Part shown: piece by piece, positions 1,387 to 47,999 of the stretch
How the letters are laid out: each line of letters opens with the position of its first letter
Position numbering within the stretch: position 1 is the first letter of the stretch
Virus record (IMG/VR): IMGVR_UViG_3300044546_001769
Coordinates: 1 to 55,052 of that record
From: a virus
Strand: one strand, 5' to 3'
Length of the DNA: 55,052 bases
The notes under the pieces: generated by a model
The model's input: only the letters and a program-made list of their open reading frames with translations
Database searches by the model: none
Told to the model about the DNA's origin: nothing
Position numbers and translations under genes: made by a program

Positions 1387-2661
1387 ATGACCTCTGTAAA
1401 ATATTTCACCAATGTTATGGAAGGCGCACCCCAACTAACAAACTCTTGGGGTTGTATGGTAGACTTGTTAGATGCTTGTTTAGTCAATGGCTTTAACCAA
1501 CTCCCCGTTACTTCCATAACACGTACAGGATCTGTTGCAACTGTTACAATTGATGGTACGCACAAATATCAAGTCGGACAAGTCATATTAATAGATGGTG
1601 CAAATGAAACAGAATATAATGGTGAAGTAAGAGTAGTGTATACAACGACAAATACATTCACTTTTAATATTGCTGAATCCGCACCGAACGAGGCAACAGG
1701 TTTAATTTCTGCTAAAGTTGCTCCATTAGGATTTGAAAAGGTGTATGGTGAAACTCACAAAGGCGTGTACCGTAGCAAGAACGTGCTCAGTAACCGCCCA
1801 TATCTACGTGTAGATAACTCTTGCGCTCCTGCTTACAATACAACATATGCCAAAAAGGCTAAAGTTGGTTTGGCTCAAGGTATGAGTGATATCAATACTG
1901 TAATAGGTGCTCAAGCTCCATTTGATCCGTCTAATCCAGATAAAAACTGGTCAACGACTGGTGAAGGTGGTGATGTTGTAGATGGTTGGTATAAATGGTA
2001 CTATGCTAAATCTGCTTATATGTATCAATGGAGTGGTGATTTGGGTAATAACATACAAAACTATAACCGCCCATGGGTTTTGGTTGGCGATGACCGTGGA
2101 TTTTATTTGTTTAATGAATACGGCAGTGATGGAGGCGGCAATGGACGCGGTGGTTATTGCTTTACGGACTTTGAAAGTTATCGACAAGGCGATCCATTTA
2201 ATACAATGTTGGCTGCTTCTGATTTTTATACGACTGCAAATAGCGCAAGTTCTTGGGGTGATACTAACAACCAATTTAATCGCTCACTGGACTTTACTGG
2301 CAAGATTTTGATGCGTGACCACACATTACTTGGCGGAAATCAACGAGTTGGAATAACATCACTTAATACCAACAACGGGCAAACAATCAGCGGCAGGACT
2401 ACGGGAATCCCGTTTCCTAATCCGGTGGACTACTCCTTAATTCTGCATCCAACTTATTTGATGCAAGAAGGCAACAAGGGACTGCGCGGTAAGTTACCAG
2501 GTCTCATGTGGGTGCATAACGACAATCCATTACAAGATTTGACAATCGTAGAAAACGTTGTAGGATATGCAGGTCGCAAATTCATCATGGTCAAAATGAA
2601 CTATGATAGCACAGGCGCATCAGCAACAATGGCTGTGGATATTACTGGTCCTTGGTGGTAA
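1387..2661 (+). CDS. Putative virion structural protein, 424 aa
   Basis: Preceded by AAAGGTAAAAA, an acceptable ribosome binding site, and tightly packed between fibre genes. The protein is rich in Asn, Gly, Thr and aromatic residues with alternating polar/hydrophobic stretches, typical of beta-rich virion proteins. A small beta segment around residues 40-95 (SVATVTIDGTHKYQVGQVIL) resembles beta-sandwich modules found in phage tail and fibre proteins. No catalytic motif or signal peptide is visible. Likely a fibre or baseplate-associated component; the exact role is unknown. Confidence 0.7.
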   Translation: MTSVKYFTNVMEGAPQLTNSWGCMVDLLDACLVNGFNQLPVTSITRTGSVATVTIDGTHKYQVGQVILIDGANETEYNGEVRVVYTTTNTFTFNIAESAPNEATGLISAKVAPLGFEKVYGETHKGVYRSKNVLSNRPYLRVDNSCAPAYNTTYAKKAKVGLAQGMSDINTVIGAQAPFDPSNPDKNWSTTGEGGDVVDGWYKWYYAKSAYMYQWSGDLGNNIQNYNRPWVLVGDDRGFYLFNEYGSDGGGNGRGGYCFTDFESYRQGDPFNTMLAASDFYTTANSASSWGDTNNQFNRSLDFTGKILMRDHTLLGGNQRVGITSLNTNNGQTISGRTTGIPFPNPVDYSLILHPTYLMQEGNKGLRGKLPGLMWVHNDNPLQDLTIVENVVGYAGRKFIMVKMNYDSTGASATMAVDITGPWW

Positions 2662-2682: not shown

Positions 2683-4500
2683 ATGATTTTAACCAATGTA
2701 CAACCATCGCCAAAAGACCCGCGGGATTACAAATATCCAACGGCTACACCAGCAACAACTTCTTCGCTGCCATTTTCAGTTGATCTACGTGAATTTGCGG
2801 GTGATATAGAACAACAAGGACAAACTGGTTCGTGTGTCGCAAATGCTGCAGTAAGTGCATTGGAAATATTATTAACACGACAAGGTCAATTTGAAAACTT
2901 GTCGCGACTATTTCATTATTGGAATCTACGTCAAGGTTATCCTGATCTTGCTGGTGTAGACAGTGGTTCTTATCCACGTGATGCATTTAAACTTGCAAAT
3001 CAAATTGGTATCTGCGATGAAATAACATGGCCTTTTGATGAATCAAAAGTAAATGTACAACCATCACAAGCTGCATTTGATGATGCGTCATCAGTTAAGG
3101 CTTTTGGATATTATTCTATTGCAATGGGATGGACACAAGAACACAGGGCAACATCGCTTCTTACAATTAAACAAGCAGTATCAAGCGGTTATCCTGTTTT
3201 GATTGCTGCTCATATAAACGCAGAATTTCAACAGATTTATTCAACTAATCTTGAAGGAACTCAATCACAGTTTGTTAATGCACAATTTCCAATTGGAGCA
3301 CACGCTGTCTTGGTTGTAGGTTATGCTGGAAATTCATTATTGATTGAAAACTCATGGGGTACAAGCTGGGGATGCAACGGCTATGCATTAATACCAGGTC
3401 TTGCATTAATGTTGGATACATTTGAAGCTTGGGTATGTACTGGCGTAAACGGAAATCAAATACCAAAACTTGCCAGCGCAACTCCGCTTGGCAATCCCCC
3501 AAAGTGGTGGCAAGTTGCACCTAATTTAACACCAGTTGCAGCTTGGGATGCCAAACGTGTTAATGGAGCTCAACTAATTGACGGTGTAGGTAATAACAAC
3601 ATAACAGCAACAAGTGAATTGATTAAAACAGACTTCCTATTTTTAGGTGTTGCTGGAAACAGTGACCCAATGACGTTATCGACACCTGTACCAATTCCTA
3701 GTGTAGGCGTTGTTGCTGGATTCTGGAGTCCAAAACGGCGAAACGTTCTGTTGTCAAAAGAATATGGTAACACCAGCAGTTATGCATTACATCTTTCAAG
3801 TGACGGCAATGGTTGGTATTCTAATAATGAAAGTTCTTATGAATATTACGGTCAATATGGTGAACTTGGAGAGCGTTATTTTGTTGCAATGGTAACACGT
3901 GGAGACGACTCAATTTTGTACGTTGACGGAAATTTAGTTGGCAACCCAATTAGCAGTAGCAGAACAATGAGTCATGTCGGGCTAATTGGTTATGCAACAA
4001 ATGGCAACGAGTTCAACCTTGACTCGGATGAATTTCTCCATGCTGTGGGCATTTGGTCTGGAGCGGCAACTCAAGATGATATTAAAGTAATTGAAGCAGC
4101 AGCTCGACTTGAATTAAAAGGTGCTAACATGACAAGTCGGGGCTTTGCAGCCCGAACAGGTCGAATGGAGTTCCCCATTCCTCAGCACCTTCTGCTTACG
4201 CCCGCACAACCACGATTCGTAGGTTCAACACTTACACGCCGTGATTACCAATTTGGTGGAAACGGACGAATCACGGGTACTGTAAAAGAAAAGGGCACGA
4301 CTGACCAACCGATACAACGGCGGGTGCAGCTGTATGACGAAACCAGCAAGGTAATGACCCGCGAGGCGTGGAGCAACCCTGTTACGGGCGCTTACCTTTT
4401 CGAAAACATCGACCCGTTGCTGACCTACACCATTATAAGTTATGACTACACAGGCGCGTACAAGGCTGTTGTAGCAAATGGTATAAAAGCGACAATATGA
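2683..4500 (+). CDS. Papain-like (C1) cysteine protease fused to a lectin-like and a C-terminal beta domain
   Basis: Residues 1-240 form a papain-family peptidase. QQGQTGSC carries the oxyanion Gln45 and the catalytic Cys51 (six apart, as in papain), GAHAVLVVGY carries His207, and ENSWGTSWG carries Asn223. There is no signal peptide and no recognisable inhibitory propeptide. Residues ~265-470 look like a concanavalin/LamG-type sandwich (WDAKRVNGAQLIDG, GFWSPKRRNVLLSKEY, ILYVDGNLVGNP). Residues ~520-605 (GRITGTVKEKG, GAYLFENIDPLLTYTI) resemble a carboxypeptidase-regulatory-like beta sandwich, and this part is strikingly G+C-rich: 36 of 60 bases at 4321-4380. Placed among tail-fibre genes, it is probably a virion-borne protease that binds and cuts host surface protein. 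Protease assignment is firm; virion location is inference. Confidence 0.88.
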   Translation: MILTNVQPSPKDPRDYKYPTATPATTSSLPFSVDLREFAGDIEQQGQTGSCVANAAVSALEILLTRQGQFENLSRLFHYWNLRQGYPDLAGVDSGSYPRDAFKLANQIGICDEITWPFDESKVNVQPSQAAFDDASSVKAFGYYSIAMGWTQEHRATSLLTIKQAVSSGYPVLIAAHINAEFQQIYSTNLEGTQSQFVNAQFPIGAHAVLVVGYAGNSLLIENSWGTSWGCNGYALIPGLALMLDTFEAWVCTGVNGNQIPKLASATPLGNPPKWWQVAPNLTPVAAWDAKRVNGAQLIDGVGNNNITATSELIKTDFLFLGVAGNSDPMTLSTPVPIPSVGVVAGFWSPKRRNVLLSKEYGNTSSYALHLSSDGNGWYSNNESSYEYYGQYGELGERYFVAMVTRGDDSILYVDGNLVGNPISSSRTMSHVGLIGYATNGNEFNLDSDEFLHAVGIWSGAATQDDIKVIEAAARLELKGANMTSRGFAARTGRMEFPIPQHLLLTPAQPRFVGSTLTRRDYQFGGNGRITGTVKEKGTTDQPIQRRVQLYDETSKVMTREAWSNPVTGAYLFENIDPLLTYTIISYDYTGAYKAVVANGIKATI

Positions 4501-8206: not shown

Positions 8207-9214
8207 ATGACTTATATGGTTGCAGCTATTCTCGATAATGACGCAAGCATCAATACAATAACTACACCAAGGGGAGAAATGGGAGCATTCATTGGTGAAG
8301 GGTTGTTAAATACTGGATCATTGTCAACGACTAATTTTGACAAAACGCAAACGTATAATCTTCAACCAGACGGCTATGCTGCAATACCGGTTGGCAGCAC
8401 TATCGATGATTTTTTTCAAATTTCTAGATCGTCTAATGTTGCAATTATAAACTCTGTGTCAATAGCGGTCAACCTTGAAACGTGCGTATCTTTACTGACT
8501 GGTTGGAGATTTGGTTTTGATAGTACTACAAACAGACAACGACAGGGAATGTTTGGAACTGTACGTGTAACTAATCAAACATCAACTACTAGTTATGACC
8601 TTGCAAGCGGTTGGGAATATCCAGCGTACAATTCTAACAGCTGGGATAGAATATTTTGTCCTATTAGTGTATTTTCTGGAAATGGAAAATTTTATATTTT
8701 TTATGTTGTACTTGGAAATACTACAGTAGTTCAAGATGCGTTTAGAAGACGCGTTTGGATAGGTTTAAAGGAGTCAGATGATGGTATCGATTGGCAGAAT
8801 GTCACTGAACAAGAAATAACTCAAGATCAAGTCATTTCTCCTTTTTTACACTTTGCGATCAGTGGGACTGAAAAGTTCGCGTTTCAGTCAACAAAAAGTT
8901 GGGTTGGAGACAAATACTTTATTGGTGATATAATTTTAGGTAAGTTGATATATTCAAACAACGGTCTTAGTGAATGGACAGATCATCCAATAGGTCGTTT
9001 TAACGGTCTACATTGGTATACTGAAAATGGAGCTCCCGTGTTATGCGCAGTTCGTATTGGCGATGACGGATGCTTTGGAACAAAAATTTGCGATGTCTAT
9101 GGCAATATGCTGCCAATTAGCTGGAAAAGATCTGCAACACCATGGGATTGGTCAATTAACAGGCTAGATGCCGGATATATAGCTCCTTCAAACAAACACG
9201 GCGGACTAAAATGA
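8207..9214 (+). CDS. Putative virion/fibre protein, 335 aa
   Basis: A strong ribosome binding site (AAAAAGGAG, 6 bases before ATG) fixes the start. The protein is beta-rich with repeated aromatic strands such as WDRIFCPISVFSGNGKFYIFYVV and ESDDGIDWQNV, reminiscent of the bladed beta-propeller folds used in carbohydrate-binding fibre tips. I see no sialidase Asp-box, so enzymatic activity is not claimed. It overlaps the next gene by 4 bases, which suggests they are made in similar amounts. Confidence 0.65.
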   Translation: MTYMVAAILDNDASINTITTPRGEMGAFIGEGLLNTGSLSTTNFDKTQTYNLQPDGYAAIPVGSTIDDFFQISRSSNVAIINSVSIAVNLETCVSLLTGWRFGFDSTTNRQRQGMFGTVRVTNQTSTTSYDLASGWEYPAYNSNSWDRIFCPISVFSGNGKFYIFYVVLGNTTVVQDAFRRRVWIGLKESDDGIDWQNVTEQEITQDQVISPFLHFAISGTEKFAFQSTKSWVGDKYFIGDIILGKLIYSNNGLSEWTDHPIGRFNGLHWYTENGAPVLCAVRIGDDGCFGTKICDVYGNMLPISWKRSATPWDWSINRLDAGYIAPSNKHGGLK

Positions 9215-12051
9215 CAACATTTACATTTTCATCTTACATTTCTGGTTCTGCTCCATCTACCAACGTTTTTGATTACGGATTTTTTAAAAATCATAAAATT
9301 TTACGATGGACCGAACTTGTTTATGGTTTAGAAATGACTGCTGCAGAAATAGCAAACTCTACAGAACTAAAATTTGTTATTCCTTCGATAGCGCCTGCAC
9401 AAAAAATGTTAAATCAGTTAATTCAAAATGAGAGTATTAGAGCAGCAGATGATGATTTAGATTTTTATTGCATGGGCGTTATAACAAAATCAAATAACAC
9501 TGTTGAATACTTTGACGTTGTTTCTAGCACAAAGGTTTATGGTATTAATGATCTTAATCTTTCAGTGTCATCAGAAACGCCACCGGCTGAATACGCGTTG
9601 ACGTATTTGTTACGAATGATCAACTATTCAAACAGCGACAATTATGATTATAAGTTTGAACGTCTAGCGAATCAAACCACATTTACGGTTAATATTCCTC
9701 CTAGTAAACTTTTGAATGCTGTACGCATAGGTATAGCTGTATATCCTAAATTCTGTCTTGATATTATTGCGCAAACGATTGGCGGCGGCGGAAATAATAA
9801 CGGAGGCGGTGGTGGCGAATCAATTGGAAACATGATTTGGGATTCTAATTCCAGCGCATATATTTCTCAAGAACCGGTTCAGACAAACGGAAAAAGTCAA
9901 TTCACATACACGTTTGACGTATCTCGACTCAAGAATGAAGTAGATCAATTAGTCATCGCGAATGAAACAGATCCAGAACTTCCAGAAAATCTTTTACAAA
10001 TTTTAACTGGGCCGCGTGCTTATGATTGTTGTGTTATTGCACTAGCAATAGAAGACATGGAAGCATTCAGTGGAATGTTTGGAGTTGCAACACATCAGTC
10101 AAGCGGTGCAGTTAATGATCCAAGAAATCTTAGTTTTGATCAAAATATCATTAAAATATTTGCGCAGCAAGTTCTCGCTGGAAATATACAACCAATGCCA
10201 ACCAATGATGGAATAAACACAATAAATGTTGTTTACGAAAGTGACGTGAATCAAGGCTCATTGTTATGTTGTTTCGTGTTCTCGTATGCTATGATGGCTG
10301 CGATGGAAGCCGAAGGCGGGTTTAATAATGATGGTGAGGATGAAACTCCTATTGAGTATGCTCCGTACAGATTTTTCGGGTATGAATCGAGTTTATATAT
10401 AAACATTAATCCAGAATATTGGAGAAATGCAAATGGATGGAGCAGTAATGTAGGCCAAACTAGCATAGCATTTATTGTTACTAATGTTTGGTTGCCAGGT
10501 CAAATAAAACCGGAACTGTTAAACTTCAGTTTAACGCCTGACTCGCAGTATGAACATGGTCCGTACAGACTTGAATTTTATTCGTACTGGGAAAATACAT
10601 TCCCTGACATGTCAGACAAAACAGAACAACAATGGAATGAGCTGCTGTCAGTTCCACTTGGCGAGCTTGATGGTTTTGGAAATATTGATATTAATATTCC
10701 AAGCGACTATGGAAATATTGTTATTGTGAAAGTTATAGCTTATAATTCTGGACCAGTAGAACACGTTCCTATGTTGACGGTTACTGCTAAAGAAATTCAA
10801 AACAACGTACCGTCGATGTTAGCTGGATATACTATAACAGATTTAGATTTTGCAAGTAATTGGTATGGATTTGCTTTGGATTCAAATTCTGAAACTACTG
10901 GCATAACTAACAGAACGACATACTGCAAAGTATTCAGAATAAACAATATAGACAATATGTCTGGAGCAGGATGGGTTCGCGTTACCACTCCAGATTCAAA
11001 TGCATGGATTTACAAATTCAATGCAGATTCACATGAGTTTGGTGATTTTGATCGTGATGGCGGTCGCAAGTTTTTATTGATCTCTGAAGAAGAATTACAA
11101 AAACCAGTTTATATAATGGTAACAACACCCAATGAATATCAAACTGGCTGGTTTAATATTTTATCTGGAAGTGAAGATTTTGCTGGTGATAGACGATACC
11201 AAATTTTTGACTCCTCATTTAATGAATTAATAACGCTAAATGATACATCTCCGACTTCTGCGTTTAACAGATATGATGGAAGAATAGTAGAAGAAAATAA
11301 TTGGTGCGACATTAATGATATTCAGCCAACAAAGCGTGCTACCGACGGCAATACATACAATAAAGAATTAATAGACGACCCTCGAGGAAACGGAAAAATC
11401 TGGAAAATAACTCCAATAATGAATCCTGGATCGTATTATGAAATGAATAGTACGATGCTCGGCGAAACTTTTTATGCGAATAGACCAACAGATTTGGGCC
11501 ATTATTATGTGTATTATAAAGGAACTTGGAACAATAATCATAAACCACTAACACCTAGCACTGTTCACGAGTTTATTGCTGATGCAGGACTTTCATCTGA
11601 CGATTACGATGATTTTATTATAACATATAATTCCTCTATTGGTGGCATTGTTACTAGAAAATATATCGGAGAAACCGCCGATATCTGGAGCAATCCCATT
11701 CCACAATATAGAACGAATTTTATTGATTTGTCGGGTTGGACTATTGTACTCATTGCTGAAATATATTTCAACGGCGTTCCAAATGGTTTGTTACAGGAAG
11801 TTGGCTATAATGGTACATACACAACAGCACTTGACAAATTATTTAGAGAAAGCTCACATTTTGAATATAGCGATTTAAAACAATATTTTACAGATCCATC
11901 AATCGCCGGAATAATAGGTTATTATAATCGAACGTATAATAACCAAACAGATCAAAACGATGAGTCATATACAATTGATTATATAAGAGAAGTACGAATT
12001 GGAGAAGATTATACCGGCACGTTCTATATCAAACCTCTTGAATATTTGTAA
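9211..12051 (+). CDS. Large tail-fibre/adhesin protein, 946 aa
   Basis: Starts in an ATGA overlap with the 8207 gene. The first ~190 residues form a separate domain that ends in a Gly/Asn linker (TIGGGGNNNGGGGG), the same kind of linker as in the 4777 protein, so the two fibres share a construction principle. A region around residues 525-675 (GYTITDLDFASNWYGF, then AWIYKFNADSHEFGDFD) may be another PPC-like sandwich. No enzyme motif is seen. Likely a virion surface protein; the ligand is unknown. Confidence 0.72.
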   Translation: MTTFTFSSYISGSAPSTNVFDYGFFKNHKILRWTELVYGLEMTAAEIANSTELKFVIPSIAPAQKMLNQLIQNESIRAADDDLDFYCMGVITKSNNTVEYFDVVSSTKVYGINDLNLSVSSETPPAEYALTYLLRMINYSNSDNYDYKFERLANQTTFTVNIPPSKLLNAVRIGIAVYPKFCLDIIAQTIGGGGNNNGGGGGESIGNMIWDSNSSAYISQEPVQTNGKSQFTYTFDVSRLKNEVDQLVIANETDPELPENLLQILTGPRAYDCCVIALAIEDMEAFSGMFGVATHQSSGAVNDPRNLSFDQNIIKIFAQQVLAGNIQPMPTNDGINTINVVYESDVNQGSLLCCFVFSYAMMAAMEAEGGFNNDGEDETPIEYAPYRFFGYESSLYININPEYWRNANGWSSNVGQTSIAFIVTNVWLPGQIKPELLNFSLTPDSQYEHGPYRLEFYSYWENTFPDMSDKTEQQWNELLSVPLGELDGFGNIDINIPSDYGNIVIVKVIAYNSGPVEHVPMLTVTAKEIQNNVPSMLAGYTITDLDFASNWYGFALDSNSETTGITNRTTYCKVFRINNIDNMSGAGWVRVTTPDSNAWIYKFNADSHEFGDFDRDGGRKFLLISEEELQKPVYIMVTTPNEYQTGWFNILSGSEDFAGDRRYQIFDSSFNELITLNDTSPTSAFNRYDGRIVEENNWCDINDIQPTKRATDGNTYNKELIDDPRGNGKIWKITPIMNPGSYYEMNSTMLGETFYANRPTDLGHYYVYYKGTWNNNHKPLTPSTVHEFIADAGLSSDDYDDFIITYNSSIGGIVTRKYIGETADIWSNPIPQYRTNFIDLSGWTIVLIAEIYFNGVPNGLLQEVGYNGTYTTALDKLFRESSHFEYSDLKQYFTDPSIAGIIGYYNRTYNNQTDQNDESYTIDYIREVRIGEDYTGTFYIKPLEYL

Positions 12052-12062
12052 AACATTATTTT

Positions 12063-12070
12063 TATAAATA
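12063..12070 (+). promoter_or_regulatory. Candidate T4-type late promoter (TATAAATA)
   Basis: An exact match to the T4 late -10 element TATAAATA, in the only sizeable gap between the fibre block and the following membrane-protein operon, 28 bases before its first ATG. T4-like late promoters need gp55 and the sliding clamp, both encoded in this window. Confidence 0.65.
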
Positions 12071-12098: not shown

Positions 12099-12542
12099 AT
12101 GAATCAACAAGTACAACCTCAAAAAGAAGAATTTCCACCCGAGTTTGACCGGCGTGGAGCTAATCGCGCCGCCAGTCAATGGATTCGTAATGCACTACAT
12201 GAGCAGGGCGAAAAAATAGACGGCATAAAGGCTGAAGTGCATGAAATAAAGGGAATTCTTGAAAAAACAATTCCAGAATCAGACTGGGACGGTCATCGCA
12301 AGAGTCATTTAATTTTTCTTCAACGTGAAGAAGAATTGAGAAAGCACGAAGCTGAGCACAAAAAACTACAAGAAGAACAACGACTTTTTTGGTCGGGTAT
12401 AAAACAAGATATAATAAAATATTCACTGAGAGCAGCAGGAATATTTTTAATTGGTATTTTTATACTAGGTGGTCAAGCAAAATTTAAAGAATGGATTCGT
12501 TTAGCAATGGCAGAACAACCTGCTATAGAGGTTAAAAAATGA
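12099..12542 (+). CDS. Membrane-anchored coiled-coil protein, 147 aa
   Basis: A hydrophilic, highly charged N-terminal region (residues 1-105, with Lys/Glu heptads predicting a coiled coil) is followed by one hydrophobic segment at about 111-125 (AAGIFLIGIFILGG) and a short tail. It begins an operon of three genes joined by ATGA-type overlaps (12539, 12973). The single C-terminal membrane segment could fit a tail-anchored lysis accessory protein, but there is no diagnostic motif. No clear ribosome binding site precedes the start. Confidence 0.65.
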   Translation: MNQQVQPQKEEFPPEFDRRGANRAASQWIRNALHEQGEKIDGIKAEVHEIKGILEKTIPESDWDGHRKSHLIFLQREEELRKHEAEHKKLQEEQRLFWSGIKQDIIKYSLRAAGIFLIGIFILGGQAKFKEWIRLAMAEQPAIEVKK

Positions 12543-12976
12543 AAGACGAACATATTCTAACACTGGTTGGATGGGTGGCATTTGTTATGACGTTGTTTTT
12601 TGGAACAATTGTATTTTATACATTTGACGGAACACCACCTTTTGAAATAAGCGACTCAGTTAGTAGCGTAACTAGAGAAGAAAATGGTAATTATGTACTA
12701 ACTGAAAGTCGCGGCTTTGTTGGGCATGATAGTCAAGTTCTTACGATATTTAGAACGTTGTATAAAAAGGAGGACGACAAGCACGTAAACAGCATTGAAG
12801 GCGGTTCTGTCATGAATCAAAATGATGATTATGTTGTTTTAAGAGCTATTCAAATTCCTCCACACTTGAATGGTTGGTGGTGTTCACGCGCTATTGTTTT
12901 TTGGAGACCGTCACTTTCACTTAAACAACACAGTTTAAATTTACCTGACCTTTGTTTTGAAATACCAAGAAAATGA
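12539..12976 (+). CDS. Membrane protein with one N-terminal TM segment, 145 aa
   Basis: A single hydrophobic segment at about residues 8-27 (LVGWVAFVMTLFFGTIVFYT) acts as an uncleaved anchor, leaving ~115 residues probably on the periplasmic side, where the next gene's product also works. It overlaps both neighbours by 4 bases. The soluble part carries two Cys (WWCSR, PDLCFE) that could pair. Function not recognised. Confidence 0.65.
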   Translation: MKDEHILTLVGWVAFVMTLFFGTIVFYTFDGTPPFEISDSVSSVTREENGNYVLTESRGFVGHDSQVLTIFRTLYKKEDDKHVNSIEGGSVMNQNDDYVVLRAIQIPPHLNGWWCSRAIVFWRPSLSLKQHSLNLPDLCFEIPRK

Positions 12977-13758
12977 AAAAAATATTTTTTGTATTAGTAT
13001 CATTGTTTATTTCTGTTTCTGTATTTGCACAATCTGCTAAAAAAATAAGAATAGTCACTGAAGACTTTCCTCCATTTCAAACATTACAAAATGGCGAAAT
13101 TGTTGGTCCAATGTACAGTGTAATGCAAGCAATTTGTAAAGAGGCAAAACTCTCGTGTAACATTGAATTGCTGGAATGGAAAGACGCATATAGACAAGCA
13201 CTAGATGGAAGTGCTGACGTTGTTTTCTCTATTTTATTGGAAGTGCCGGAGAGAGCTCAATTCTTTTACATGTCGCCGTCAATAGTAGATACAAGTTATT
13301 CATTGTTTGTTACAAGCCGAAACAAATGGAAATATACTGGATATGAATCACTTGAGGGCATGAAAATTGGAGCGTACGGTCCAAGTGGAACAAGTATTGT
13401 TGCTCAAGAATTAGTAAAAGGACGAGAAATTGCAGGCTTTTCTGTTGTTCCACTTACTATAGAACCAAGTATAGTCGAAAGTTTCCAGCAGCTGATTACT
13501 GGAAAGTATGGCGACAATGGAGCAGTCGTTGTCAATAAAGATGTTGGGCTAGCACTGTTGAAGAAACATTCTATTTTTGGACCCAAACCTGCCGGTGATA
13601 TTAAAAGCATAACGTACGGATTTGGTTTTTCTAAAAAGAGTCCAAATGCCGCAGAATTTCAAAAAATGGTAGACGCTCTTAGGCGTTTGCAAGATAATAA
13701 AACCATTGTTGAAACACTTCGCTGGCACGGCTTAAAAGCATCTCAACACAAAAGATAA
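12973..13758 (+). CDS. Periplasmic solute-binding protein, family 3 (amino-acid-binding type)
   Basis: A textbook signal peptide (MKK, hydrophobic core, SVFA then Q20) is followed by a complete SBP_bac_3 fold. The first lobe runs IRIVTEDFPPFQ, GEIVGPMYSVMQAICKEA and DGSADVVFSI. Then comes the ligand-pocket region ERAQFFYMSPSIVDTSYSLFV, then the hinge and second lobe LEGMKIGAYGPSGTS. Length (261 aa) is normal for the family. These proteins bind amino acids or similar small molecules in the periplasm and hand them to ABC importers or sensor proteins. No transporter genes are nearby; the neighbours are small membrane proteins, a holin candidate and a lipase. Family is near certain; what a phage gains from it is unknown. 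Confidence 0.9.
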   Translation: MKKIFFVLVSLFISVSVFAQSAKKIRIVTEDFPPFQTLQNGEIVGPMYSVMQAICKEAKLSCNIELLEWKDAYRQALDGSADVVFSILLEVPERAQFFYMSPSIVDTSYSLFVTSRNKWKYTGYESLEGMKIGAYGPSGTSIVAQELVKGREIAGFSVVPLTIEPSIVESFQQLITGKYGDNGAVVVNKDVGLALLKKHSIFGPKPAGDIKSITYGFGFSKKSPNAAEFQKMVDALRRLQDNKTIVETLRWHGLKASQHKR

Positions 13759-13846: not shown

Positions 13847-14305
13847 ATGGAATTTTATAACTACACAAATGCGCGTCAAATACGTGATCTGACAAAAGAA
13901 CGTGAGGCAAATTTTTGTTTAAACCAAATCGCAGAAAAATTTAATGGTAAAATTGAAGCAATTCATTATGACTATATATATGAAGTAGGAAATTCATTAA
14001 GTGATTTTAAAACTGTATGCAGATATCAATATGCAGAGATTCTTAAAAAACAATGTGATGTTCCTGAATTAGTTATAAAAGAACTTATGGACATAATTAA
14101 AAAAGAAGATACATTATTTTTCTTCTTAGTCGATTTTCCAAAAGGACAGTTTAGAAAATGTTCAGCCGAAATTTTCTCTTGTGTGAAAAGTTTGGGTTAT
14201 GTTTCTATTACGTTAGATGATTATAATCGTTCTGGAAGAGACGTTTGGGGAAGTTATGGTTTTTCTGGAGATTATTTGACGGATGGCAGAATAAAAATTT
14301 TATGA
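13847..14305 (+). CDS. Hypothetical protein, 152 aa
   Basis: Preceded by CTAAGGAAATC, a good ribosome binding site 5 bases from the ATG. Soluble, with no signal peptide or membrane segment. The N-terminal half is helical and charged; the C-terminal half (CVKSLGYVSITLDDYNRSGRDVWGSYGFSGDYL) has a glycine/aromatic-rich pattern. No family recognised. The 88-base gap upstream has no clear promoter. Confidence 0.6.
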   Translation: MEFYNYTNARQIRDLTKEREANFCLNQIAEKFNGKIEAIHYDYIYEVGNSLSDFKTVCRYQYAEILKKQCDVPELVIKELMDIIKKEDTLFFFLVDFPKGQFRKCSAEIFSCVKSLGYVSITLDDYNRSGRDVWGSYGFSGDYLTDGRIKIL

Positions 14306-14315
14306 AAGGTTTGGT

Positions 14316-14759
14316 ATGGATAAAATTGAAGAACAAATTAAGCAGCTAATTTCCGAAAAATTAAATGTTGATTTAGAAACAGCAAATGTAATTATCGTTG
14401 CAGTAAAATCTGGCAACGGCACTGCTGAACAAATTGAAGCATTCAACAAAATTGAACAAGAAATTAAATCTAAAATGGTCGATGTTTTTGGAAATGCTGC
14501 GCATGTAGAAAATCAAATTTCAGCAAGAAATTTAGCTATTACAAATAAAAGCAAAATTCCAGAATTCTTATCTGTTGTTATAACGATTGGTTTTTTTGGA
14601 ATCTTGGGTTATATGCTGACTATGGAATCTAAACCAAACGACACTATTTTAGTTATGCTTGGTTCGCTTGGTACAGCATGGATTGCTATTGTAAATTATT
14701 GGTTTGGATCTTCGAGCGGAAGTGCATACAAATCTGAAATAATGGCAAGACAAAAATGA
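14316..14759 (+). CDS. Holin candidate (3TM-holin-like), 147 aa
   Basis: Two hydrophobic segments, about residues 81-101 (FLSVVITIGFFGILGYML) and 107-127 (ILVMLGSLGTAWIAIVNYW), run straight into NYWFGSSSGSAYKS. A Trp-Phe-Gly-Ser-Ser-x-Gly-Ser tail after the last membrane span is characteristic of the GTA-type/3TM holin family. The N-terminal ~70 residues are soluble and helical. It overlaps the lipase-like gene by 4 bases. Holins form the inner-membrane lesion that times lysis; the assignment rests on topology and the tail motif. Confidence 0.62.
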   Translation: MDKIEEQIKQLISEKLNVDLETANVIIVAVKSGNGTAEQIEAFNKIEQEIKSKMVDVFGNAAHVENQISARNLAITNKSKIPEFLSVVITIGFFGILGYMLTMESKPNDTILVMLGSLGTAWIAIVNYWFGSSSGSAYKSEIMARQK

Positions 14760-15559
14760 AAATAAAAAAAATAACAGTTGATTTATATAAATGCGTAAAA
14801 AATGTTTTTTACATAAAAAATGTTTTTACAGCTTCTAATTCAAGCGATCCAGTGTGGCGTAAAAACTTTGGCGAGTTTGAAACACTGGCTAATACTGTTC
14901 CAAAGTTTACTAAAACTGTTTTTAATTTGTTAACTGGCGAACTCTCAAAAAATAATGAATTAATTTTAAAAGATGTTGACGGAGATGAGCATTGGTTTTA
15001 CATCAATGGTATAATGACATCAAAAGAAGTTGCTGCATATAATGAATTGGCATTAGAAAATATTTTTGGAAAAGAGTTTCATACACTCTACAATCCTACA
15101 AATGGTTTCGCAGCAGATATGTTGGAAGTATTCTATGAAAGAACATTAGACAACATTGCACCAATCACACGACAGCTTTTTGACATTATAGACGAGCTGA
15201 TTTATAACGATAAAAAAGTTAGAATCATTTCATATTCTCAAGGCGGAATAATCACGAATAACTTCTTAAAAATGATAGCAAAACATTCGAAATGCGGAAA
15301 AAAGTATTCGAATTTGGAAATATATACTTTTGGTGGAGCTGCAGACGAAGAAGTATTAGTTAAAGGCGTATATCAAGAACATTTTGGAAACGAAAAAGAT
15401 TTTGTTGCACGAATTGGATTGATGTTTGAAAATACTCAAAGTAAATATTATACTTTAAATAATGCGGTTGGACATTTGTTAAATCAAGATTACCTTGAAC
15501 ATTTTAAAGCCGGCAGATATTGTAACGGAAAATCAAAATTATTTAGCTATACACAATGA
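14756..15559 (+). CDS. Lipase/esterase-like alpha/beta hydrolase, 267 aa
   Basis: The strand-then-loop HWFYINGIMTSKEVAAYN suits the oxyanion region of an alpha/beta hydrolase, and IISYSQGGIITNN is a nucleophile elbow of the (S/G)xSxG type with Ser161. Asp215 (NEKDFVARI) and His240 (NAVGHLLNQDYL) are in the right order for the acid and base. No signal peptide is present, so export would depend on the neighbouring holin candidate. Coupling to a holin suggests a lysis-time lipase acting on host lipid; a virion-associated esterase is the alternative. Fold assignment is moderately firm, substrate unknown. Confidence 0.7.
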   Translation: MKIKKITVDLYKCVKNVFYIKNVFTASNSSDPVWRKNFGEFETLANTVPKFTKTVFNLLTGELSKNNELILKDVDGDEHWFYINGIMTSKEVAAYNELALENIFGKEFHTLYNPTNGFAADMLEVFYERTLDNIAPITRQLFDIIDELIYNDKKVRIISYSQGGIITNNFLKMIAKHSKCGKKYSNLEIYTFGGAADEEVLVKGVYQEHFGNEKDFVARIGLMFENTQSKYYTLNNAVGHLLNQDYLEHFKAGRYCNGKSKLFSYTQ

Positions 15560-25169: not shown

Positions 25170-25518
25170 TTATATTGTATACGCAGTAATAATTGCATGG
25201 TCTTCGCTTATTACATGGTTTGTAACAAAACGAAAAATAAAGCAAGAACAGCTTGAGATGACAAAAATAGATAATGAGCATGATTTTTTAAAACGCCAAA
25301 ATTCTTTGATTGATCATGCTCTAAATCAAAACGAAAAAATTACACATCTTATTAGGCATTTTCAAGATGAAATAGGTAAACTACATCAGGATGTAATTGA
25401 ACTGCGTGTAGAAAATAATTGTCTTAAATATGAAATAAGTCAACTCAATGACACTATAAAGTTACTTGTTCAGGTAAATGACGCAGAAAAAACATTCATA
25501 GGTGAAAAACATGTTTGA
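25138..25518 (+). CDS. Membrane-anchored coiled-coil protein, 126 aa
   Basis: One N-terminal span (IVYAVIIAWSSLITWFV, residues ~12-28), a basic stop-transfer (TKRKIKQ), then ~85 residues of heptad-patterned helix. This is inner-membrane spanin-like topology, but the next gene is a better i-spanin because it carries the embedded partner. TTGAAGAAA upstream can serve as ribosome binding site. Confidence 0.58.
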   Translation: MTKFLTNGIIDYIVYAVIIAWSSLITWFVTKRKIKQEQLEMTKIDNEHDFLKRQNSLIDHALNQNEKITHLIRHFQDEIGKLHQDVIELRVENNCLKYEISQLNDTIKLLVQVNDAEKTFIGEKHV

Positions 25519-26110
25519 CTTTTTATTAATTTTATTTTCTATTGATTGGAATACGCTTATAGTACCAATTATAGTAGCTGGAATAGTACTGTACTGTATT
25601 TCACACGTAAAAATTCTGCCTTTACCTTATAGGTTTATATCTGGAGTGGTTGGAGCAATTTTAGCAGTCGGCGGAATTTTTATGAGCGGAATGAATCATC
25701 AAGCTCAAAAAGAACTTGCAGCAGCTGAACAGTTTAAACTTCGTATTGCACAGCTTGAACTTGACGTTCGAGAAAAAAAGATTGAAATCGTAAATAAGTA
25801 TGTAGACAAAATCAAAACAATTGAAGTCGAGAAAAAAGTATATGTTGAGGCAGTCAATGAAATCTTTACACCTGAAATTATTAATCGTTTCCCTATCTCT
25901 AACGGGTTTGTTAGGTTGCACGACTCAAGTGCGTCGGGAAGTCTTTTGCCCAGCTCCGCCGAAAGAATTGATGGAGAAGCCTCATCAATTACAATTGCTA
26001 GAGCAACAGAAGTAATCGTTGAAAATTACACAAATTGTAGAGCCAATGTTGTTCAACTAGAAGCTTTACAAGAATGGATTAAGTCTGTTCAAGAATTAAC
26101 CAATAAGTAA
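25511..26110 (+). CDS. Inner-membrane spanin (Rz-like), 199 aa
   Basis: The ATG at 25511 has AGGTG six bases upstream; a GTG at 25502 in the same frame is less likely. Two hydrophobic segments lie near the N-terminus (~12-30 and ~40-60), then a long heptad helix (AAAEQFKLRIAQLELDVREKKIEI). The C-terminal ~75 residues (FVRLHDSSASGSLLP, then VIVENYTNCRANVVQLEALQEWI) are the pattern of phage Rz proteins. Spanins join inner and outer membranes in the last step of Gram-negative lysis. The outer-membrane partner lies inside this gene in another frame. Confidence 0.82.
   Translation: MFDFLLILFSIDWNTLIVPIIVAGIVLYCISHVKILPLPYRFISGVVGAILAVGGIFMSGMNHQAQKELAAAEQFKLRIAQLELDVREKKIEIVNKYVDKIKTIEVEKKVYVEAVNEIFTPEIINRFPISNGFVRLHDSSASGSLLPSSAERIDGEASSITIARATEVIVENYTNCRANVVQLEALQEWIKSVQELTNK
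25857..26015 (+). CDS. Outer-membrane spanin lipoprotein (Rz1-like), nested in the Rz gene, 52 aa
   Basis: Lies wholly inside the 25511 gene in a different frame. It begins MKSLHLKLLIVSLSLTGLLGC: a short lipoprotein signal with lipobox Leu-Leu-Gly-Cys and lipidated Cys21. The mature part is short and Pro-containing (CPAPPKELMEKP), as in Rz1. GTTGAGG lies upstream of the ATG. The frame is also open to an ATG at 25821, but that would put charged residues ahead of the signal. The nested arrangement is the classic lambda Rz/Rz1 layout. Confidence 0.83.
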   Translation: MKSLHLKLLIVSLSLTGLLGCTTQVRREVFCPAPPKELMEKPHQLQLLEQQK

Positions 26111-36062: not shown

Positions 36063-36467
36063 ATGAGTTATATTCTTGATCAAATCTATCGCGATTTTTT
36101 TAATGTTGGCGGTAATATAAAGGATGGGTTTCCATTCTACAATCTTGTAAAAAAAGACGAAAAAACATTTGAAATTCGTCTTGCATTGGCTGGTTACAAT
36201 ATGTCTAACATCGAGGTATTGGTTGATGGAGAGCATCTTGTTATTTCTAGTGCAGGTATTGACGAACGTTCAGAAACATTTGTTCATAAAGGCTATACAG
36301 GAAAACCGTTTGTAAAAAAATTCATTTTGAATTCTGAAGCTGAAGTAAAAGGCGCAGATTTTCAAGACGGTGTTTTGACTGTTTTTGTAGAACGTATTGT
36401 ACCAGAAAAAAACAAAGTACGACAAATTAAAATTAACGGTTTAAAACCTGAAATTCTTAACGGATAA
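36063..36467 (+). CDS. Small heat-shock protein Hsp20
   Basis: An alpha-crystallin domain: FEIRLALAGYNMSNIEVLVDGEHLVISSAG, then KGYTGKPFVKKFILNSEAEVKGADFQDGVLTVFVER. The A-x-F-x-D-G-V-L turn is the family hallmark. 134 aa. Hsp20 homologues are well known in T4-like cyanophages; they may hold virion or replication proteins soluble. Ribosome binding site ATAGGAGC. Confidence 0.88.
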   Translation: MSYILDQIYRDFFNVGGNIKDGFPFYNLVKKDEKTFEIRLALAGYNMSNIEVLVDGEHLVISSAGIDERSETFVHKGYTGKPFVKKFILNSEAEVKGADFQDGVLTVFVERIVPEKNKVRQIKINGLKPEILNG

Positions 36468-43237: not shown

Positions 43238-44113
43238 ATGATAAAGAAAATTGTCACATTTATTTGTTTTTCATTATTGACAACCGCGGTTTTTGCTGCA
43301 AACTACACTTTGTGGGTCAACGGTCGTGGAGGTGGTGGTCAGGACGGCAACTACGCAGACTTCAAATATTGGGGTCCTGCAACTACAGATGCCGGCGTAA
43401 ACAAAAAGGCCGTTAACTGGAATGGTTACGACCGTGTTGCCACCAAAAACTACCAAATTCGTGATGCCCTCGACTGCTTCTGCACTGGCACCAACTGGTG
43501 CTACATTGGAGCACACAGTGCAGGCAATCTGCAAACAGGTTACGCGCTTTCTTTGTTTGGCGGAACAACCCGTCAAGTTAAAAATGCCACACCCAATGCT
43601 TCAGGCGTGTGCGGCAACGTAGCAGGCAACACCACCCAAACCGGCTGGAATATCAAGTGGGTAAACGTAGCTTCTGGCGCCGCAGGTGGCAGCGAGTTGT
43701 CTGACTTAGGCAGCTGGGCTATGTCAGAACCTTTAGTTTCTGACCTGAAAACCACCACCTCACGCGCTATGTACGACCACAACCAAACCCGTGGTAAATG
43801 GTTCAACATGTATGCAGGCGCTAAAGGCACAGTCTATGCAGCTGTATTGTCCGGACAAGATGACCAAGCTGTGTCTTACCACTCCACTGGTGGAGTATCC
43901 GGTAGCGGCGGCACAGCACTGTGCAACCCATCCGACTGGTGGTGCAATGACCTGACTATGGGCACAGCATCCAACGAAGGCGGTAGCCGTAAATGGAGCT
44001 TCCATACCGTTAAACTGCGCGACGACAAAGAGCAATTTGACCACTATGCCCGCAGCAACTGGCAAGGCATTATTGATCCGGTTCGTAAAGATGTTGTTCT
44101 AATGGCACGATAA
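43238..44113 (+). CDS. Secreted AHSAG-motif protein, possible alpha/beta hydrolase, 291 aa
   Basis: A signal peptide (MIKK, hydrophobic core, TAVFA then A21) targets it outside the cytoplasm. The mature part opens with NYTLWVNGRGGGG, and CYIGAHSAGNLQTGYAL offers a nucleophile elbow of the AxSxG type at Ser94. The C-terminal RDDKEQFDHYAR could supply acid and base. Several Cys suggest disulfides. Base composition is odd: the mature region is G+C-rich (32/60 at 43681-43740, 34/60 at 43921-43980), whereas the signal peptide DNA is A+T-rich like the phage. Start supported by CTAAGGAGAAG. Hydrolase call is tentative. Confidence 0.68.
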   Translation: MIKKIVTFICFSLLTTAVFAANYTLWVNGRGGGGQDGNYADFKYWGPATTDAGVNKKAVNWNGYDRVATKNYQIRDALDCFCTGTNWCYIGAHSAGNLQTGYALSLFGGTTRQVKNATPNASGVCGNVAGNTTQTGWNIKWVNVASGAAGGSELSDLGSWAMSEPLVSDLKTTTSRAMYDHNQTRGKWFNMYAGAKGTVYAAVLSGQDDQAVSYHSTGGVSGSGGTALCNPSDWWCNDLTMGTASNEGGSRKWSFHTVKLRDDKEQFDHYARSNWQGIIDPVRKDVVLMAR

Positions 44114-44201: not shown

Positions 44202-46460
44202 ATGTTAAGAGCCTTTATTTTAGCACTAATGTTGTGCGGCTCTGCTCACGCTTTACCGATATCGGTAAACAACAACTTTACTTCCAAGTCAATTGGCGGC
44301 GTTGTAGAGGTCTTTGAAGACAAATCGGGTGAAATTGAGATAGCTGACGTTTTAAGCAGTTCTCACATTCAAAACCAATTTGCTAGCATGCATAGTGAAA
44401 CGCCTAACTTTGGCTATACAGACAGCAGTTTTTGGGCACGTATCAACCTGAACGATTCTCGCAAGAGCGCGTTCTCAGCTTATGCAGAACCACTATACTT
44501 AAAGTACGGGTATGCACAGACTGACTACGTTGCTATCTGGTGCTATAACGACTTTAAATCAGAAGTCATGCACCAAAAAGCGGGAGATCATGTGCCTCGT
44601 GCTGAGTGGTCTAGTAGCTATAGAGAGCCGGTATTTGTTATTCCTAGCGATGCCAGAGTTTGTTACCTCAACGTCAAGACGACTTCTGCAGTTCAGCTCT
44701 CCCTCGTACTCTATTCAGAAAAAGAGTTCAATAAGTTCTTTGTTTTAGATAGTGCGCTGCAAGCAATGTACTTTGGCGCACTGCTAATCTCTGCCGCATA
44801 CAACCTGCTGATAGCTTTCTCATTACGCTCTAAAGCATACTTTGCCTACACCGTATTTTTACTGACGTACGGTACTTTTCAGATTTCCTACAACGGCTAT
44901 GGCTATGCCTTATTTTGGACTGACATGATTGGTTTTGCGGACAAGATTCTACCTTTTATGATTCTGACGATTGGCGTAACTTCATGTACTTTCACTTCGC
45001 TGCTCTTGAATCTGAAAAAAGAGTCACCACGATTTCATAGGCTAGGCTTTGCCTTGATGATAATAATTGGAACTCTTGCAGTAATAACACTGTTTGCCGA
45101 TTACAAGATAGCTCTAATGTCCACTTTTATATACAGTCCGGTTTGGGCTTTCTTCCTGCTGGGTTCTGGCTGTTACTTGGCTTACAAAGGTATGCGCGTA
45201 GCTAAGATTTACCTAATGGGTTGGTGGATGTTTGTCATCGGGACTATGGTTATTATTTGTAGTCGAATAGGCTACCTACCAGTAAATGACATAACCACTA
45301 ATGCAACGCAGATAGCTACAGTGCTTGAGTTTTTGCTATTTTCCTTTGCGCTTTCAGATCGTATCAATACAACTCAAAGTGACCTAATCAAAGCTCAAAA
45401 GAAGATTGCAGAAAATCTTAAAGCGTCAGAGCAAGAGCTTGAAACCAAGGTTGAGCAACGCACCAAAGAGCTATCAGATACCCTTGAAGAATTGCAGTCC
45501 ACGCAAACACAACTCGTCCAAGCTGAGAAGTTGGCGTCGCTAGGCTTGCTGGTGAGTAACGTAGCCCATGAACTTAATTCACCTATTGCTTCTATCATGT
45601 CAAGCGGAGATTCTATTGCATCGTCGGTCAATGAGATGGTAGATAACTTGCCTGAGATTATTCGACAGTTAGAAGGTGGTGACAGGGAATTGTTCTTTGA
45701 CTTGATAATGCACCCTAAAGTGCAACGTGACTTTGTGCCAAAAGAGGAACGACAACAAACACGCGAGGTTACTGCAAAGCTCAACGAACGCGGTATTGAT
45801 GGTGCAATGCGCAAAGCCCGTCTGCTAGTGCGACTAGGTGTGTACAAGGAGGTTGATAAGTTTATGCCATTACTCCAATCCAAGGACAGCGATTTTGCTC
45901 TGAACGTAGCAGCGGGGATTGGAGATGTTTTAAGTGGTACACACAACATCAACTCCGCGGTTGAACGTGTAAACCGCATCATCTTTGCGCTCAAAGAACT
46001 TGCAGGCACGGAGCGTGTCATGGCAATGGAAACAACCTACCTTCACGTAACGATAGAAAAGGCGCTGAACTCGTACCGACACCTGATGAAAGACGTTAAG
46101 GTAGTTTTCAATCACGCGCCAATAGAAGCTATACAGTGCGACCCCGAAGCCATGCAGCAAGTGTGGACACATTTAATCATCAATGCACTTCATGCCATGA
46201 AGTACAAAGGTACGTTAGCAATTGACCTATCATGTATAGACAACCAAGCAAGAGTGTCTGTAAAGGACGAAGGTACCGGCATAGGACTTGACGTGCAAGC
46301 AAAGATGTTTGATGCTTTCTACACAACGAAAACATCAGGCGAAGGTGGTGGAATGGGACTGGCGATTGTTAAGAAAGTTGTAGAGCAGCACCGAGGACGC
46401 ATACAGGTGACTTCTGAAATTGGCGTTGGTACAACCTTTGTTGTCTTTTTACCTTTATGA
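44202..46460 (+). CDS. 7TM-DISM sensor histidine kinase, 752 aa
   Basis: Signal peptide (1-18), a periplasmic beta domain of 7TMR-DISMED2 type (about 25-170, with GYTDSSFWARINL), seven membrane spans (about 185-385) and a coiled coil (390-445). Then a dimerisation domain with the phospho-acceptor NVAHELNSP (His456) and an ATPase domain: N box LIINALHAMKYKG (Asn661), G1 KDEGTGIG (Asp689), F box FDAFYTTK, G2 GGGMGLAI. All catalytic motifs are intact. A ~110-residue insertion splits the dimerisation domain, as in some proteobacterial kinases. G+C content is higher than the phage core (30/60 at 45961-46020). No response regulator is nearby, so a host regulator may be the target. Confidence 0.92.
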   Translation: MLRAFILALMLCGSAHALPISVNNNFTSKSIGGVVEVFEDKSGEIEIADVLSSSHIQNQFASMHSETPNFGYTDSSFWARINLNDSRKSAFSAYAEPLYLKYGYAQTDYVAIWCYNDFKSEVMHQKAGDHVPRAEWSSSYREPVFVIPSDARVCYLNVKTTSAVQLSLVLYSEKEFNKFFVLDSALQAMYFGALLISAAYNLLIAFSLRSKAYFAYTVFLLTYGTFQISYNGYGYALFWTDMIGFADKILPFMILTIGVTSCTFTSLLLNLKKESPRFHRLGFALMIIIGTLAVITLFADYKIALMSTFIYSPVWAFFLLGSGCYLAYKGMRVAKIYLMGWWMFVIGTMVIICSRIGYLPVNDITTNATQIATVLEFLLFSFALSDRINTTQSDLIKAQKKIAENLKASEQELETKVEQRTKELSDTLEELQSTQTQLVQAEKLASLGLLVSNVAHELNSPIASIMSSGDSIASSVNEMVDNLPEIIRQLEGGDRELFFDLIMHPKVQRDFVPKEERQQTREVTAKLNERGIDGAMRKARLLVRLGVYKEVDKFMPLLQSKDSDFALNVAAGIGDVLSGTHNINSAVERVNRIIFALKELAGTERVMAMETTYLHVTIEKALNSYRHLMKDVKVVFNHAPIEAIQCDPEAMQQVWTHLIINALHAMKYKGTLAIDLSCIDNQARVSVKDEGTGIGLDVQAKMFDAFYTTKTSGEGGGMGLAIVKKVVEQHRGRIQVTSEIGVGTTFVVFLPL

Positions 46461-46473
46461 GTTAGTGATTAAA

Positions 46474-47064
46474 ATGAATACAAATAAAATCGATTGTCAT
46501 GTAATAAATTCAAACGAGCCAGACGAATGGAAGCGACAATGTCTAGACAGCATAGAAACTGCACCAATTATTCTACACGAGGTCTCTGGAATTCCTGGAA
46601 AAGTTGGTGCAGCACGACATGCTGGATTTTCTAAAGGCAACAAACCGTTTGTATCTTTTGTTGATTTTGACGATTTTTATAATTCATTTGCATTTAATGC
46701 TCTGCAGAACTGTTTAGAAAATAATCCTTCAGTAGTTCTTGCATATACTAATGAGGTATATGTTAATGAGCAAGGTCACGTCATGTGCGAACGAAACCTT
46801 TCATACAGCAGAAAAAAACACATCTCTTATGGCGATCATGTTCATGGTTTAATGCTTATTAGACGCTCTGCATTGTCAACAGTTCTTGATTCAATCGTTG
46901 ACGTTGAAAATTATTCAGAATGGTTCTTAACACTTCAACTCTCAAAGCTTGGAGAAATACGACACTTGCCGATCATAGGTCGATTCTGGCGACAGCACTC
47001 GCGGCAATCGCATTTGAAAGCTGATCCTGTTACTGTTAAAAAAATAAAAAATCTTTTCACGTAG
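46474..47064 (+). CDS. Family-2-like glycosyltransferase, 196 aa
   Basis: ATG at 46474, 14 bases after the kinase stop; a frame start at 46420 would lie inside the kinase gene. GKVGAARHAGFSKGNKPFVSFVDFDDFYNS is a GT-A nucleotide-binding core with a DxD-like metal site (DFDD), and NYSEWFLTLQLSKLGEIRHLPIIGRFWRQHSRQSH suits the acceptor side. Composition is A+T-rich, like the phage. It could modify LPS, pili or DNA; nothing in the sequence decides between them. Confidence 0.8.
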   Translation: MNTNKIDCHVINSNEPDEWKRQCLDSIETAPIILHEVSGIPGKVGAARHAGFSKGNKPFVSFVDFDDFYNSFAFNALQNCLENNPSVVLAYTNEVYVNEQGHVMCERNLSYSRKKHISYGDHVHGLMLIRRSALSTVLDSIVDVENYSEWFLTLQLSKLGEIRHLPIIGRFWRQHSRQSHLKADPVTVKKIKNLFT

Positions 47065-47115: not shown

Positions 47116-47346
47116 ATGAGCATCGATTTGCCAAATATGAGTACTAAAGAGATCATTTTATTAAATAAAATATGGTCGTGCGATTCACTAGATGAATTTA
47201 AAACTTGGAAAGAGAGTTTATGTGAATCTGACCAGCTTCTTGCAAATGATCTGCTTTTTGCACTCTCTGCAGAAATAGAACTTCAAGAAGAACAATCGTA
47301 CAGTGAAGCTCAACAACTAATAGAAAAAATAAAAAGGAAGATATGA
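47116..47346 (+). CDS. Hypothetical protein upstream of the pilin-like gene, 76 aa
   Basis: GAAGGAATATTATG sets the start. Acidic and helical (LSAEIELQEEQSYSEAQQLIEKIKRKI). It overlaps the pilin-like gene by 4 bases (ATGA), so the two are translated together. Function unknown. Confidence 0.62.
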   Translation: MSIDLPNMSTKEIILLNKIWSCDSLDEFKTWKESLCESDQLLANDLLFALSAEIELQEEQSYSEAQQLIEKIKRKI

Positions 47347-47999
47347 AAAATCAAAAAGGTTTTACACTAGTAGAAATAGCCATCGTAATGGTCATTATTG
47401 GCTTGCTCTTGGGCGGTGTTCTAAAGGGTCAGGAAATGATTGAAAATGCGCGGGTAAAAGATACAGTGAATGTTATGAAAGGTGTTCAGACTGCGTATAA
47501 TGCATATCAAGACCGATTTAAAGCAATTCCCGGTGATGAAACTGCTACTGTCATGACAAATCGTGGTTGGGCTGGTAACACTGGTCCGGGTGTTTCAAAC
47601 GGTTCGTTGGCAATTCCACTCGCACAAACATTTACTAATGGCGGTGATCAAGCGGGTTTTTGGCGCGCTCTGCGTGCTAGTGGCTTTATGACTGGCGATC
47701 CAGCTGCTCCAGCAACAGCTGCAGGTTTGCCTACTTTGAGCACCGGTGGCTTGGTTGGAATCAATTCTGGTCCATCATATGGATTGCCTGGTCCTGTTGT
47801 ATGTGCTAGTGGTCTTTCGACAAAGCAAGTTGCTGCTATGGATCTAATGATTGACGGAACAGGTGCTGCAAACAATACTGGTTCATTTAGAGCAGCTACA
47901 GGCGCAGCAACTCCGCTTGTTCCTGTTGCAGTAGCACCAGCTGCAACATTCTATTCTGACAACGTTCTCACTAAATGGACTGCTTGTATTACTATCTAA
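47343..47999 (+). CDS. Type IV pilin-like (prepilin) protein, 218 aa
   Basis: A class III signal peptide: MKNQKG, then FTLVEIAIVMVIIGLLLGGVLKGQEMI. Cleavage by prepilin peptidase would fall after Gly6, with N-methylated Phe at +1 and the conserved Glu at +5. The following KDTVNVMKGVQTAYNAYQDRFKAIPGDE is the usual pilin/pseudopilin helix and turn. A globular domain with two Cys (VVCASGL, TACITI) follows. The 47701-47760 stretch is 34/60 G+C, unlike the phage core. It would need host pilus machinery to be matured and assembled; none is encoded here. Confidence 0.92.
   Translation: MKNQKGFTLVEIAIVMVIIGLLLGGVLKGQEMIENARVKDTVNVMKGVQTAYNAYQDRFKAIPGDETATVMTNRGWAGNTGPGVSNGSLAIPLAQTFTNGGDQAGFWRALRASGFMTGDPAAPATAAGLPTLSTGGLVGINSGPSYGLPGPVVCASGLSTKQVAAMDLMIDGTGAANNTGSFRAATGAATPLVPVAVAPAATFYSDNVLTKWTACITI

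Follow-up and report, generated by a model that had tools for sequence, protein, structure and literature searches.

Why would a phage carry a solute-binding protein (SBP) in the middle of a lysis cassette? The question is raised by a 55-kb viral record (IMG/VR IMGVR_UViG_3300044546_001769, positions 1–55,052; hereafter the window), which has a T4-type replication set with a polymerase at most 42% identical to those of marine T4-type phages, and also encodes a DnaB-type helicase. The gene at issue (12973–13758, plus strand) is a complete ORF of 261 codons for amino acids, which we predict to specify a secreted family-3 SBP. Its product matched the SBP_bac_3 profile PF00497 (E = 2.8e-12; bit score 47, cut-off 26.4), and an AlphaFold2 model of moderate confidence (mean pLDDT 78) matched amino-acid SBPs with Z-scores of ~22–23 across 219–231 residues; profile and model, which has the full bilobed fold, thus place the protein in this family. 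Residues 1–23 are hydrophobic and are followed by an AxA-like site (VFA/Q), a lipobox is absent, and a cysteine pair of the disulfide type (C55/C62) is present. Judged by hydropathy and motif, the protein carries a putative periplasmic export signal. An earlier note on this DNA had described a complete family-3 SBP with a signal peptide, and the profile match, the fold match and the hydrophobic N-terminus bear out that description.

Two small membrane proteins are encoded immediately upstream on the same strand. The first, fam1 (12099–12542; 147 aa), combines a coiled coil, placed in the cytoplasm, with a C-terminal transmembrane (TM) segment assigned by hydropathy (residues 105–124); it is conserved in 12 loci, as is its C-terminal (E)xKK. 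Window fam1 had no match in Pfam, and a single homologue, that of the related locus L069, hit phrog_937 “hemolysin” weakly (E = 0.007); fam1 may be weakly XhlA/“hemolysin”-like. The second, fam2 (12539–12976; 145 aa), was modeled by AlphaFold2 (pLDDT 81) as an N-terminal TM anchor followed by a periplasmic Ig-like β-sandwich, and two of its cysteines, C115 and C139, are invariant in 12 homologues. The Ig-like domain gave structural matches at Z ~11, from which a function was not read because the fold is too common to tell; the idea that the long N-terminal helix is more than a TM anchor was likewise rejected. ATGA overlaps of 4 nt join fam2 to both fam1 and the SBP gene, and the three genes are translationally coupled.

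Downstream of the SBP, the plus strand encodes fam24 (13847–14305), a 152-aa protein with no assigned function, which is 44% identical to its counterpart in the related locus L039 and, by gene clustering, common to the cassettes of the window, L039 and L074. It is followed by fam3 (14316–14759), a holin-like membrane protein (phrog_1544, E = 2.4e-6) that clusters with the phrog_3427 holins of L039 and L069 and so bridges to that holin family, and by fam18 (14756–15559), a lipase/esterase-like α/β hydrolase with a SYSQGG motif and 38% identity to L039. fam18 neighbors the cassette in four loci, and its L074 homologue gave weak DUF676/Abhydrolase_1 matches. Genes for lipase/esterase-like proteins and patatin phospholipases are found repeatedly within the cassettes or next to them, as fam18 in the window and at 8744–9682 and 11096–11965 of locus L066; they might serve outer-membrane disruption. 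The two small membrane proteins before the SBP, which the earlier note reported, and the holin-like gene after it are real, and of the “lysis genes” placed 3′ of the SBP the holin-like and lipase-like ones stand, whereas no endolysin was identified in the window, though relatives have one at that place.

The earlier note had also put a late promoter before the SBP. The possible element, TATAAATA (12063–12070, plus strand, exact match), precedes the whole operon, 36 nt before the ATG of the first gene at 12099 and ~900 nt before the SBP, and it is weak evidence for a T4-type late promoter because the window has a single exact match, whereas chance alone would give 4.8. A spanin role for the SBP or fam2 was set aside, given the lack of a lipobox and a separate Rz-like inner-membrane spanin candidate, recognized by eye from its TMs and periplasmic coiled coil at 25502–26110, far from the SBP cassette.

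Is this arrangement peculiar to one genome? Profile scans of IMG/VR found the SBP family in 12 contigs, and a profile scan of bacterial genomes led to L039, a contig of an Oxalobacteraceae metagenome-assembled genome (MAG) with an SBP 64% identical to that of the window; together, the 13 further copies are 64–71% identical to it. Gene order was examined in 11 of the 12 IMG/VR contigs, the MAG contig and the window. The order fam1–fam2–SBP, with overlaps of 4–8 nt, was found in 12 of 12 examined loci with upstream sequence (window included), a count inflated by near-copies: the records are mostly fragments, many of them from metagenomes whose identifiers are neighbors, and the independent evidence amounts to ~5 cassette lineages (the window; L039/L066; L074/L076; L067/L068; and L069–L073 with L075). 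L039 itself keeps both upstream membrane-protein homologues in order, and one end of its contig carries an integrase-like gene. After the SBP, relatives encode a holin and/or an endolysin (GH108 or M15). In L039, L074 and L076 the SBP stop codon lies in a 4-nt overlap with a GH108 endolysin gene, and in other loci a phrog_3427 holin and an M15_3 endolysin adjoin the SBP; with such neighbors the SBP belongs to a lysis cassette. Separate scans with the SBP, fam2 and fam1 recovered the same contigs with two exceptions, both of them cut at the module (L067 begins at the SBP and 3300035703_000698 stops at fam1). The three genes therefore travel as one unit, and the SBP is part of a fixed module, not a lone auxiliary gene.

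The close junction with the endolysin gene brings up a direct part for the SBP fold in lysis, either as a peptidoglycan-fragment-binding cofactor or as an SBP-derived enzyme aiding the endolysin. The stop/start overlap with GH108 endolysins speaks for such a part, as do the regulatory N-terminal domain of MltF, which answers to muropeptides, and the existence of SBP-derived enzymes, the AncCDT/cyclohexadienyl dehydratase lineage being among the fold matches. However, the same SBP is paired with unrelated endolysins (GH108 or M15), the window copy has no identified adjoining endolysin, and no catalytic signature was recognized; we regard a direct lytic role as improbable.

The cassette occurs in at least four phage backbones. 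Behind it, the head proteins vary (phrog_283, phrog_29 and phrog_267 in G314, G319 and the MAG contig), as do the portals (phrog_156, phrog_113 and phrog_332/1216 in the same three), and the window adds a T4-type backbone by its polymerase. G314 is probably P22-type, as we judge from its genes for coat, portal and tail. In loci of the P22-type group, L069 (2390–2803) and its relatives, a small GDCEDFALT-motif protein is encoded directly 5′ of fam1; it recalls transglutaminase-like proteases and matches no family. Carriers also have tail-fibre-region genes in common, for example a 424-aa family (window 1387–2661; L066 1178–2455; L076 2–187), and host-recognition and lysis regions may therefore move together. 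The tail/fibre region of the window further encodes, at 2683–4500, a protein in which a concanavalin-like region is joined to a cysteine protease domain of the papain family (C1). Judging from the MAG and the bacterial kin of the SBP, the hosts are probably Burkholderiales, and within these probably Oxalobacteraceae.

None of the 50,697 records of a phage collection encodes the SBP family, and searches of INPHARED with the SBP, fam1 and fam2 met only a stretch of host DNA; this sole match, Escherichia phage vB_EcoM-813R9, was rejected as a carrier, as it lies at the record end, where art and ybj genes of the host adjoin it. When viral contigs were searched directly, neither the SBP nor the lipase-like protein turned up a relative, a polymerase scan of viral contigs returned distant T4-type contigs only, and the SBP was found in 0 of 8 records with related polymerases.

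A phylogeny had been proposed earlier as a check, and it united the 13 phage SBPs in one clade (support 99/100), near orphan Burkholderiales SBPs and apart from these bacterial kin. The phage SBPs are thus of single origin. They are also under strong purifying selection: the median pairwise dN/dS was 0.062 for the SBP (13 pairs), and values were higher for its partners (0.125 for fam2 and 0.12 for fam1). Pairwise identities of the SBP and fam2 were correlated, with an r of 0.94 that is inflated by near-copies. The nearest bacterial relatives found (L088, L106 and L120–L123) are ~30–32% identical to the phage SBPs and stand as orphan SBPs in the short stretches inspected; L106 alone encodes an ABC system, which lies ~2.3 kb off, is separate and includes an SBP of its own.

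What might the protein bind? We read the pocket by alignment to AncQR, at ~20–25% identity to solved SBPs, and assigned its sites from the ligand-binding residues of LAO. In the phage SBPs the carboxylate-binding Arg94 is kept and invariant; also retained are the aromatic residues F32 and W69 and the GT-loop Thr. The ammonium-binding Asp position is Asn188 in all 13 phage copies that were aligned, as it is in the bacterial orphans nearest to them, so that the Arg-plus-Asp pocket canonical for α-amino acids is lacking; M47 is invariant where the GFD aspartate is expected, and L89 stands where Ser/Thr is expected. Because Arg94 and F32/W69 are kept, a carboxylate ligand is predicted, and because Asn188 and Met47 replace the usual Asp, one other than a standard free basic α-amino acid, a prediction that we make with modest confidence. 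Peptidoglycan peptides and blocked amino acids would be candidates.

The earlier note suggested that the SBP may boost host nutrient uptake late in infection. It would dock on a host amino-acid ABC permease and sustain late nutrient import, much like cyanophage PstS. The typical amino-acid SBP fold agrees with this, and phage PstS offers a precedent, its absence accompanying delayed lysis in phosphate starvation (PMC10976474). Nevertheless, no synteny was found for cyanophage pstS (PMC10976474); an auxiliary SBP of that type is a lone gene of variable place close to a host gene, whereas here a three-gene operon is fixed in lysis cassettes on several backbones and the kin are distant (~30–32%). 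An ABC permease (PF00528) was absent from the window and the 12 other SBP-bearing viral records, a host permease being possible, and the permease partner expected beside an ABC-transporter substrate-binding subunit is thus lacking in these records. Moreover, the nearest bacterial kin are orphans of the Asn188/YGPSGTS type, and uptake leaves fam1 and fam2 unexplained. We consider it unlikely.

A second suggestion was that the SBP feeds a sensor such as the phage's own kinase. The window encodes a full 7TMR-DISM histidine kinase at 44202–46460 (7TMR-DISMED2, 7TM and HATPase_c; H-box HELN), within a T4-type phage, so that both genes are present in this genome and the kinase has a periplasmic 7TMR-DISMED2 domain. 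The kinase, however, has a sensor domain of its own, lies 30 kb away in a separate block of higher GC (0.41–0.43 versus ~0.35), and is missing from the 12 other SBP-bearing viral records: in the proposed co-occurrence check over 13 records, the window alone had HATPase_c, the 12 others being fragments of 7–47 kb. In these records histidine kinases thus do not accompany the SBP family, and feeding the kinase is very improbable as a shared role. Elsewhere in this part of the window, a prepilin-type protein with an N_methyl motif (E = 3.3e-9) is encoded at 47343–47999, near genes for an exported 291-aa protein (43238–44113) and a glycosyltransferase-like ORF (46456–47064); a small heat-shock protein of the Hsp20/alpha-crystallin family (PF00011, E = 1.7e-13) is encoded at 36063–36467.

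Because no ABC permease was found, the kinase occurs in the window only, and fam2 and fam1 are constant partners, we favor, with a probability of about 0.45, the reading that the phage-specific SBP is the periplasmic sensor of a fam1–fam2–SBP module within the lysis cassette. Ligand binding would close the SBP, the closed (or open) form would dock on the fam2 domain, and fam2 and fam1 would relay the state of the SBP to the holin/endolysin step, such that lysis would be delayed or released according to a periplasmic small molecule. Our guess is that the module would act as a brake like T4 RI rather than as a trigger. There are precedents for the parts: T4 RI is a soluble periplasmic antiholin with a cleavable signal peptide (PMC8385771), and muropeptides switch the N-terminal regulatory domain of MltF (PMC10746161). 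The earlier note gave three options, of which the last, with its reuse of a binding module in lysis, is the best fit, since every relative has its SBP within the lysis cassette. It is conceivable, if somewhat doubtful, that a mobile small-molecule-gated lysis module with a captured bacterial SBP is common to T4-type, P22-type and other Burkholderiales phages.

Neighbors of lysis genes may also be unrelated cargo (“morons”). The three envelope-located proteins, which adjoin late genes, could provide superinfection exclusion or envelope protection by altering the periplasm late in infection and blocking incoming DNA or protecting the cell up to lysis; the products of exclusion genes are in many cases small proteins of the membrane or periplasm. 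Such a role predicts neither a conserved ligand cleft nor an invariant place by the holin/endolysin, and defense models, which cover exclusion genes poorly, gave no match; it appears to us hardly probable. Membership in a defense system was rejected, as PADLOC gave no match.

Phages are known to sense superinfection, as in the lysis inhibition of T4 and N4. A limited search of the open-access literature turned up no published lysis cassette equipped with a dedicated small-molecule-binding protein. Should the sensor reading be true, phage lysis would come under direct control of nutrients or cell-wall fragments. A module tuning lysis to a periplasmic ligand would tie burst timing to host physiology in Burkholderiales phages in a genetically tractable way, and a standard binding screen could identify its ligand. 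Should the timing idea prove wrong, the fixed presence of a phage-specific SBP family in the lysis cassettes of several lineages, and its absence from the isolated phages searched, would still need explaining.

Finally, we compared the module with known systems. With the family-3 amino-acid SBPs GlnH, ArtJ, LAO and AncQR, the phage SBP shares the bilobed fold, the export signal, the Arg94 clamp, the aromatic cleft residues and the C55/C62 pair, but it differs in Asn188 for Asp, GPM for GFD, a three-residue KYGxNG insertion, the lack of a permease partner in the genome and its lysis-cassette location. The orphan Burkholderiales SBPs have the same YGPSGTS loop, (K/R)(Y/F)G insertion and VNxD motif, but are bacterial and have no fam1 or fam2 alongside in the retrieved loci. 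Cyanophage PstS is likewise a periplasmic binding protein encoded by a phage; it is, however, a mobile single auxiliary gene serving the host PstABC, with no conserved synteny, whereas the phage SBP belongs to a lysis-linked module. T4 RI is soluble, periplasmic, processed at a signal peptide and tied to holin control, all of which is a prediction for the phage SBP; the two have no sequence relation, and RI is a small protein that makes direct contact with the T holin, whereas the phage SBP is a ligand-binding fold of ~260 residues with two extra membrane proteins. The regulatory N-terminal domain of MltF has the SBP_bac_3 fold; MltF was not among the matches listed in the SBP fold search, and the two may still be kin. 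In MltF, muropeptide binding to this periplasmic domain switches peptidoglycan-lytic activity; the bacterial domain is fused to its enzyme, and the phage SBP is free-standing.
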